Below are positions 8,822-45,530 of a stretch of DNA of 64,000 bases, piece by piece. The stretch comes from Pseudomonadota bacterium. GTDB taxonomy: Bacteria; Pseudomonadota; Alphaproteobacteria; Acetobacterales; Acetobacteraceae. The stretch spans positions 62,001 to 126,000 of the forward strand of contig JAJZBM010000003.1 of assembly GCA_021798915.1 (NCBI GenBank), given 5' to 3'. The translations under genes and the position numbers were made by a program. The stretch's first letter is position 1. Each line of letters begins with the position of its first letter. The notes below the pieces were generated by a model. The model saw only the letters and a program-made list of their open reading frames with translations. It had not been told where the DNA came from and ran no database searches.

Positions 8822-8837
8822 ATGTTTATATAAACAT
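8822..8837. promoter_or_regulatory. Perfect 16-bp palindrome ATGTTTATATAAACAT, candidate operator
   Basis: Self-complementary sequence 66-81 bp upstream of the OMP start codon, in an AT-rich intergenic region. Confidence 0.45.
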
Positions 8838-8918: not shown

Positions 8919-10760
8919 CTACCCGGCCGGCGCGCTGCAGGAGGCAGCACCGAAGACGCAAAACCGCGCGCAATAGGGGTGGTTGAGCGTCACCGGGCGC
9001 GCCGCCGCGGCGAGATCGGCGCCGAGATCGAAATCCGGCGCATAGGGCTGCAAGGTGCAGGCAACGACCCTGGGCGCCGCCTCGCCCCGGCGATGGACGA
9101 CCATGCGGGAGGTCTCGCACATCACCCGCCGCCCGCGCCCGGCGAGCGTCTGCCAGCAGGTCGCGCTCACCTCCGGCGGGTCGGGCTGGCCGGCGAGTTC
9201 GGGAAACAGCGTGAGATGCGCGGGATCGAAGGCGTCGAGCGCCAGGCCGAGTTCGGCGAACAAGGCGGCGAAGCCGGCGCGCAGCCCCGCCTCCTCGATC
9301 TCGGGCGGCCGCCGCGCGGCGATCGAGAGCGCCGCCCCGCTTGTCGCCAAAAGACGAAGCCCGGCGAGGGTCGGGGCAAAGCTTCCCGGGCCGCGCAGGC
9401 GCTCATGCCCCGCCCGGGTGTAATGGTCGAGCGAGACGCGAAGCGCGAGCCGCGCGCCATGCGCCGCGGCAAGCGCGCGCAGCGCCTCGCCGTGCCGCTG
9501 CATCGGGCGCATGGCGTTGGTCAGGACGAGCGCGCGATAGCCACGCGCGAGCGCTTGCGCGATCATCCCCGGCGTCTCCGGGTTCAGAAACGGCTCGCCG
9601 CCGGTGAAGCCGATCTCGGCGAGTTCGGGATGGCGGGCGGACGCTTCGTCGAGAAAACGCTCGAAATCGGCGCGGGCGAGATAAATCAGCCGGTCATTGC
9701 GCGGGCTGCTTTCGATATAGCAATCCGTGCAGGCGATGTTGCAGAGCGTGCCGGTATTGAACCACAGGGTTTCGAGGGCGGTGAGCGCGACCGAGGCGTG
9801 CGGGGCGCCGCTTGCGGTGCGGGCCGGATCGGCGAAAGCCGGGCGCGGCGCGGGCGCGGCTTGGGCCGTCTCCGGCCATTTCGTGACGGCGGGCGCGAGC
9901 GGCGTGCCGCTCATCGCCTGCTCGGCGGCGGGCAGGATGTCGAAATTCGGCCAAACGCCGCTCTCCAGCGTCTCGGCATAGTCTTCCGGCAGCCCGGCAC
10001 GCCGCATCGCCGCCGCCGCCGCGCGATGGTCATAGGCGAGCGGCAGATGGCGAATGTCGAGTCCGTCCCGCCCGGGAATCAGCAGGCTGAACCAGCCGCG
10101 TGGGGTTCCGTCATTGGCGGGCAGGCCGATCACCCCGGCATTGTGCCAGAGCCGCGCGCCGAGGCGGCGGGTGAAGGGCAGGCCGCAATGGCCGCCGATC
10201 ACGCCGTCGGTGCCGGTTTCGGCGATTTCGTGCCCGAGATCGGCGTCCGGGGCGGAGGCGAAGACGAAACGGTTGATCCGGCTCGGCGCGCCATGGACGA
10301 CGGCGAAGCGGTGCCCGCCGATGAGGAGATCGAGCCGGCGCGGCAGCCCCGCCATCCAGCGCCGCGTCGGGTGATCGACATGGGCGCTGGCATAGGTGAA
10401 CCAAGCCGCCGAAAGCCGTTCGCAGCGCGACCCAGGGGCGAAGCCGCAGCCGCAATCCTCGGCCTCGGCGGCGAGTTGTTCCTCGCAATTGCCCATCACC
10501 GTCGCGATCCCGGCGGCGCGGATGAGTGCGATCACCGGCGCCGGATCGGCGCCATAGGCGACGACATCGCCGGTGCAGATCATGCGCGCGGGCGGAATGC
10601 CGAGCCGGGCCGCCTCGGCGAGCAGCGCCTCGGTCGCCTGAAGATTGCTGTAGCAGCCGCCGAAGACCAGAACCGGCCCGTCGGTGATGAGCAGCGGCAC
10701 CGCCATCGCCCCGCTTGCCGCGCCGAGCGCGTCGGGGAACACGCCCTCGCTCGCCCTCAT
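8919..10760 (-). CDS. Degenerate calcineurin-like phosphoesterase / radical SAM fusion protein, ~613 aa
   Basis: N-terminal VLVFGGCYSNLQATEALLAEA...CTGDVVAYGADP...VMGNCEEQ...VVHGAP...GGHCGLPF; C-terminal CNIACTDCYIESSP (CxxxCxxC), GFTGGEPFLNPE and six further Cys; start trimmed to ATG at 10760. Confidence 0.85.
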   Translation of the reverse strand: MRASEGVFPDALGAASGAMAVPLLITDGPVLVFGGCYSNLQATEALLAEAARLGIPPARMICTGDVVAYGADPAPVIALIRAAGIATVMGNCEEQLAAEAEDCGCGFAPGSRCERLSAAWFTYASAHVDHPTRRWMAGLPRRLDLLIGGHRFAVVHGAPSRINRFVFASAPDADLGHEIAETGTDGVIGGHCGLPFTRRLGARLWHNAGVIGLPANDGTPRGWFSLLIPGRDGLDIRHLPLAYDHRAAAAAMRRAGLPEDYAETLESGVWPNFDILPAAEQAMSGTPLAPAVTKWPETAQAAPAPRPAFADPARTASGAPHASVALTALETLWFNTGTLCNIACTDCYIESSPRNDRLIYLARADFERFLDEASARHPELAEIGFTGGEPFLNPETPGMIAQALARGYRALVLTNAMRPMQRHGEALRALAAAHGARLALRVSLDHYTRAGHERLRGPGSFAPTLAGLRLLATSGAALSIAARRPPEIEEAGLRAGFAALFAELGLALDAFDPAHLTLFPELAGQPDPPEVSATCWQTLAGRGRRVMCETSRMVVHRRGEAAPRVVACTLQPYAPDFDLGADLAAAARPVTLNHPYCARFCVFGAASCSAPAG

Positions 10761-10770
10761 CGCAGCACCC

Positions 10771-10815
10771 AGACCAAAAGGTCTTTGGTTCTTTCTTCCA
10801 AGAAAGAACCGCTTT
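10771..10815. repeat. Inverted-repeat intergenic element GGTTCTTTCTT-CC-AAGAAAGAACC + GCTTTCTT, probable terminator of ubiA
   Basis: 11-bp arms 10787-10797/10800-10810, just past the ubiA stop; related copy near 45499-45522. Confidence 0.7.
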
Positions 10816-45416: not shown

Positions 45417-45530
45417 CTTTTGACTTCCGAAAAAGAAGTCAAAAGACTTTTCTCCCGGAACAGCGCCTGAGCGCTGTCCAACCAATCAAAAGTTTTTTGG
45501 TTCTTTTTTTCAAAAAAGAACCGCTTTCCT
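45417..45530. repeat. Triple-hairpin intergenic element between convergent genes, probable bidirectional terminator
   Basis: CTTTTGACTTC/GAAGTCAAAAG, ACAGCGC/GCGCTGT, GGTTCTTTTTT/AAAAAAGAACC; last hairpin related to 10787-10810. Confidence 0.75.

Follow-up and report, generated by a model that had tools for sequence, protein, structure and literature searches.

In the biosynthesis of oxo-arsenosugars, arsenic is adenosylated by the radical SAM enzyme ArsS (PMC12159101), and for ArsL, another radical SAM enzyme, the transfer of an aminocarboxypropyl group to arsenite has been reported (PMC8552651). The window analysed here, a stretch of 64,000 nucleotides from a genome of the Acetobacteraceae, harbours a gene whose product joins a calcineurin-like phosphoesterase domain to a radical SAM domain with detectable homology to ArsS. 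Judged by its sequence, this protein represents a real, conserved and unnamed family, apparently an ArsS-type variant with an unusual putative pseudo-phosphatase partner; a literature search for the fusion retrieved no description of it.

Comparison of the family profile with 17 ArsS proteins by hhalign gave a probability of 98.6% and an E value of 5e-16 over 265 columns, among them those of the C-terminal Cys region. The scores against the curated models are far lower than their cut-offs: TIGR04167 (ArsS) yielded 57.3 bits with the radical SAM domain and 55.4 bits with the whole protein (cut-off 300), and NF049973 (Rv1681 family) about 84-86 bits (cut-off 380). Both models match all 31 family members tested, in each case below the cut-off. 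Membership of the ArsS or the Rv1681 family was rejected on these scores, and since the TIGR04167 cut-off is not reached, the protein is not an ArsS family member by the curated test; the enzyme of this family may work like ArsS.

The fused protein and its immediate surroundings

The features of the locus are listed in Table 1. The initial annotation had read the gene correctly as a minus-strand frame of 613 codons, the start of which probably lies at M19 (~10706), because the homologues begin near residues 16-27. The proposed fusion of a phosphoesterase and a radical SAM enzyme is likewise a genuine two-domain arrangement. The second half matches Radical_SAM in Pfam (residues 335-475, E 4e-12), and Metallophos_2 and Metallophos are found in the first half with values under their gathering scores. 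An AlphaFold2 model built with 98 relatives has high confidence over nearly its whole length (pLDDT 95.7, pTM 0.89); Foldseek aligned its first half with the metallophosphoesterase 3rqz and with SapH (3qfm) at target TM scores of 0.77-0.82, the fold being calcineurin-like, and its second half with BlsE, SkfB and SuiB. The motifs quoted at the outset are all present (GGCYSN at 34-39, TGD at 63-65, GNCE at 90-93, VVHG at 154-157, GHCGLPF at 190-196 and CNIACTDC at 340-347), as are the late Cys residues 535, 548, 568, 597, 601 and 608.

Table 1. Features of the locus in window coordinates; residue numbers follow the annotated 613-aa protein.
Feature	Position	Strand	Remarks
Barrel-like protein, 315 aa	7809-8756		no Pfam or NCBIfam match
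Perfect palindrome ATGTTTATATAAACAT	8822-8837		upstream of the barrel-like gene
Fused phosphoesterase-like / radical SAM gene	8919..10760	-	stop included; 613 aa as annotated
C-terminal Cys region (C548, C568, C597, C601, C608)	8937..9119	-	all invariant in 112 sequences; resembles the ArsS C-terminal Cys pattern
Radical SAM core, residues 331-475	9336..9770	-	PF04055, E 4e-12
CX3CX2C of the radical SAM [4Fe-4S] cluster (C340, C344, C347)	9720..9743	-	invariant in 112 sequences
Calcineurin-like (metallophosphoesterase-fold) domain, residues 28-280	9921..10679	-	
GHCG, residues 190-193	10182..10193	-	H191 kept in 59/59; Gly in all sequences where GHxH ends in His
H156-G157	10290..10295	-	metal-2 ligand kept; His in 59/59
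Cys loop D102-C103-G-C105-G-F-x-x-G-x-x-C113	10422..10457	-	near-invariant in the family
GNCE, residues 90-93	10482..10493	-	Asn ligand N91 in 58/59; catalytic His replaced by Cys92 in 57/59
C62-T-G-D65	10566..10577	-	Cys in 58/59; metal-2 Asp in 59/59
GGCYSN, residues 34-39	10644..10661	-	replaces SD-x-H-GN; metal-1 Asp and His missing family-wide
Perfect inverted repeat GGTTCTTTCTTCCAAGAAAGAACC	10787-10810		between ubiA and the fused gene

Conservation in the phosphoesterase half was counted over 59 sequences, the ligands being assigned to metal sites 1 and 2 as is established for the calcineurin-like family. Metal site 1 is gone: its D-x-H motif has become G35-x-Y37 (G35 in 59/59, Y37 in 58/59) and the final His of GHxH is G193 in every sequence, so that the claimed loss of the D-x-H ligands is true throughout the family. 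The quartet of metal site 2 (D65, N91, H156 and H191, i.e. D/N/H/H) is retained, and the site described as degenerate is therefore lost by half only. Among the Cys residues highlighted in this half, C92 proved to be conserved, but C36 is Cys in no more than 24 of the 59 sequences and position 192 is occupied by either Cys or Ser; a three-Cys substitute for the metal ligands made up of C36, C92 and C192 was rejected, because C36 is often Pro. The original list also missed four near-invariant residues, namely C62 and the three Cys of the loop DCGCGFxxGxxC (C103 in 57/58, C105 in 58/58, C113 in 58/59), a loop which is missing from the ordinary phosphoesterases compared.

The radical SAM half was examined over 112 sequences. 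Of the six late Cys residues that had been put forward as a sign of an auxiliary Fe-S cluster of the SPASM/twitch type, five are invariant (Table 1), and C535, being Cys in 87/112 sequences, is not conserved. The five invariant residues would fit an auxiliary Fe-S cluster.

The fused gene stands alone in the window, between ubiA and the barrel-like gene, with no partner gene adjoining; the same genome encodes, on other contigs (C1, C5, C54), a pair of glycosyltransferases, an ArsM scoring above cut-off and a MerA-like relative. A sister species has an MFS gene with an 8-bp overlap with the fused gene. The barrel-like gene and its palindrome, to which attention had been drawn as downstream neighbours, bear no relation to the fused gene and were rejected as part of a system, because the barrel was detected in no genome outside the genus (4/6 genomes of the genus, 0/18 of the other genomes searched) and because in genome G005 it lies on a contig other than that of the fused gene, the palindrome being kept. 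The palindrome is conserved in G001 and G005 (with one mismatch in the latter), each time at an unchanged distance, and is probably the operator of the barrel-like gene. The inverted repeat on the other side of the fused gene has a similar second copy in the window (45499-45522) and may be a terminator or a repeat element.

Distribution and genomic company of the family

The survey of the architecture across genomes, which the initial annotation had proposed, revealed that the fusion recurs: some 50 distinct homologues with the fused architecture and many with a split one were found, mainly in Alphaproteobacteria. The fused form is present in the genus of the window, in Acetobacteraceae, Acidocellaceae, Bradyrhizobium, Afipia, Ancylobacter, Methylopila, Reyranella, Devosia and others. 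Two loci, L043 (Terriglobia) and L085 (Planctomycetota), bear MAG titles that name other phyla. Radical SAM homologues of the split type, mostly 50-60% identical, are spread more widely than the fused form. Where the phosphoesterase is encoded separately, its gene either adjoins the radical SAM gene (L119, L160 and L161) or lies elsewhere in the genome, and many carriers of the split type have no such phosphoesterase. A single fusion event is not supported, since a quick tree needs about eight changes between the fused and split states, at least two of which are forced by supported branches.

Co-occurrence was assessed in 142 genomes of the class, 41 of which carry this radical SAM protein and 101 do not; because the genomes are related, the p-values of this comparison are too small. 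The glycosyltransferase families TIGR04283 and TIGR04282, both named by NCBI after arsenosugar biosynthesis, were detected in 36/41 carriers versus 11/101 other genomes (TIGR04283, above cut-off, p 1e-18) and in 38/41 versus 14/101 (TIGR04282, p 2e-19), with odds ratios of about 60-80. True ArsS is present in only one of the 142 genomes. The phosphoesterase domain tracks this radical SAM protein, which is found in 11 of the 13 genomes encoding the domain (p 2e-5), the other two having ArsS or TIGR04283. As a general partner of ArsS the Cys phosphoesterase was rejected, given that a 229-genome sample of the phylum with 98 ArsS carriers returned only two weak matches outside the class. ArsM-like genes occur in 13/41 carriers versus 5/101 other genomes (odds ratio 9); for true ArsS the respective values are 80/98 and 17/131.

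Neighbours that recur beside members of the family are TIGR04283, TIGR04282, TVP38 and MerA-like FAD oxidoreductases and an MFS transporter; an MTA phosphorylase and a fatty-acid-hydroxylase-like protein recur less often (the TVP38 and fatty-acid-hydroxylase-like neighbours were named by eye). Glycosyltransferase and/or TVP38/MerA-like genes lie near 39/76 family loci, as compared with 10/19 true ArsS loci, and some true ArsS clusters in other Proteobacteria have the same companions, including the MTAP-like phosphorylase. A neighbourhood of the ArsS type (TIGR04283/TIGR04282, TVP38/MerA-like, MTAP-like) is thus found for the family and is lacking in the window itself. Two loci deserve separate mention. 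In G037 the Cys phosphoesterase, with C92 changed to Val and all three loop Cys kept, is encoded beside true ArsS, an MTAP-like gene, TVP38/MerA-like genes and a TIGR04283-like glycosyltransferase, and the cluster is adjoined by genes judged by eye to be PhnD/PhnE-like transport genes. In G139 a divergent member (35% identity) is placed between the two glycosyltransferases, in the order TIGR04282, radical SAM, TIGR04283, with an ArsM-like gene next door.

Both glycosyltransferase families were also encountered without ArsS or this radical SAM protein in G051, G080, G130, G158 and six other genomes. These roughly ten genomes mean that the glycosyltransferases are not specific to the pathway, and the name "arsenosugar" given to them may over-claim their function. 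At 11 loci (L032, L033, L034, L037, L051, L052, L063, L070, L077, L078 and L080) MNIO genes of the bufferin maturase type are found within ~8 kb of the fused gene, at several of them together with BufA-, DUF2063- and DoxX-like genes.

Proposed function and rival explanations

The relatives of the fused protein stand among the same partner genes as ArsS, and the family may therefore represent an undescribed form of the arsenosugar pathway. We assign a probability of about 0.45 to the reading in which the fused gene encodes an enzyme of an arsenosugar-type pathway, its radical SAM half being a distinct ArsS relative and its phosphoesterase half a former phosphatase equipped with a Cys loop. The radical SAM half would most likely form a bond between a thiophilic metalloid centre, most likely arsenic, and the 5'-deoxyadenosyl group of SAM. 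The phosphoesterase half would bind or present the metalloid substrate or a cluster and most likely would not hydrolyse phosphate; C103, C105 and C113 of the loop appear to have been acquired, and C62 and C92 presumably lie near the old active site. Downstream, in this putative order, an MTA-phosphorylase-like enzyme could remove adenine, the CofC-like TIGR04282 protein (of the nucleotidyltransferase type) could activate the resulting 5-substituted ribose-1-phosphate, and the TIGR04283 transferase could attach the activated ribose to an acceptor, giving a ribose-linked product. What the analysis shows is the homology, the conservation of residues, the fusion with its co-occurrence and a gene neighbourhood in common with true ArsS; the chemistry as a whole is inferred, and so are arsenic as the element, the part played by the Cys loop, an auxiliary Fe-S cluster and the sequence of the later steps. 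The more specific proposal that the calcineurin-like fold has turned into a Cys-based metalloid binder, which hands As(III) or methylated As(III) to the fused radical SAM enzyme for the formation of a C-As bond, and that the protein is the alphaproteobacterial counterpart of ArsS, seems rather doubtful.

Arsenic is the weakest link of the arsenosugar-type reading, because most carriers have no detectable ArsM; inorganic or imported methylated arsenicals might be used directly, or another element altogether. The same genes and the same chemistry (deoxyadenosyl transfer followed by glycosyl activation and transfer) might serve a P, S or Se species or an organic acceptor and lead to some other modified-ribose product, which we consider possible, if somewhat unlikely. 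Such a substrate would agree with the absence of ArsM-like genes from 28/41 carriers, in contrast to true ArsS, with the replacement of an ArsS-invariant Cys in the family, with the glycosyltransferase pairs found apart from both radical SAM proteins and with the PhnD/PhnE-like genes next to the G037 cluster. The companions held in common with true ArsS clusters nevertheless speak for arsenic, as do the location of the phosphoesterase gene next to true ArsS in G037, the ArsM-like gene adjoining the G139 member and the enrichment of ArsM-like genes among carriers.

The two remaining alternatives concern the nature of the halves. The near-invariance of the metal-2 ligands and the presence of SapH, an asymmetric Ap4A hydrolase, among the nearest structures could be explained by a working one-metal hydrolase (D65/N91/H156/H191) whose substrate is a pathway intermediate in phosphorylated or adenylated form, the Cys loop being structural, e.g. 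binding Zn. Yet the metal-1 ligands have disappeared from all 59 sequences, 57 of which have Cys where GNH(E/D) provides the catalytic His, and no established one-metal family member with this ligand set is known; such an activity appears distinctly improbable. Peptide modification, with the radical SAM half acting as a RiPP maturase and the phosphoesterase half binding the leader, is suggested by the resemblance of the core and the C-terminal Cys to sactipeptide and SPASM maturases in both sequence and fold, and by the bufferin-type MNIO genes near 11 loci, but it is highly improbable: the genes that accompany the family are sugar and redox genes, and no short neighbour (>=60 aa) recurs except the BufA-like ones, which have an MNIO maturase of their own. 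For genes of that size, this also bears out the earlier remark that no RiPP precursor is evident nearby. The modification chemistry envisaged there is better placed with ArsS-type modification of a small molecule than with that of a peptide.

If the arsenosugar-type reading is true, a large unnamed radical SAM family would acquire a role and a new type of pseudo-phosphatase would be recognised; Alphaproteobacteria, including soil, methylotroph and acid-mine lineages, would be added to the organisms that probably make compounds of the arsenosugar type; and the fusion would open to direct testing the way in which toxic As(III) might be held and passed to a radical enzyme.

Comparison with known systems

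With the SPASM/twitch enzymes BlsE, SkfB and SuiB the family has in common the fold of the radical SAM core and a C-terminus rich in Cys. The SPASM signature is a seven-Cys pattern, whereas the five Cys of the family are spaced C-x19-C-x28-C-x3-C-x6-C and do not conform to it. The phosphoesterase half has the same fold as 3rqz and the asymmetric Ap4A hydrolase SapH/Spr1479 and keeps their metal-2 ligands, but it lacks the metal-1 ligands and the catalytic His and contains the inserted three-Cys loop. The Rv1681 family (NF049973) is the best NCBIfam match of the window protein, yet the alignment extends over no more than about half of the model.

The likeness to ArsS comprises the CX3CX2C core, homology over most of the length, a similar C-terminal Cys pattern and the same companion genes. 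Compared with the ArsS pattern MC...C...HC-x2-C...SSC, the five invariant Cys of the family come in the same order with other spacing, and the ArsS-invariant Cys of SLPCY (C132 in A4) is replaced, the corresponding motif being VSLDHY. The family further differs from ArsS in being often fused to a phosphoesterase domain, in its weaker link to ArsM and in forming a separate clade.
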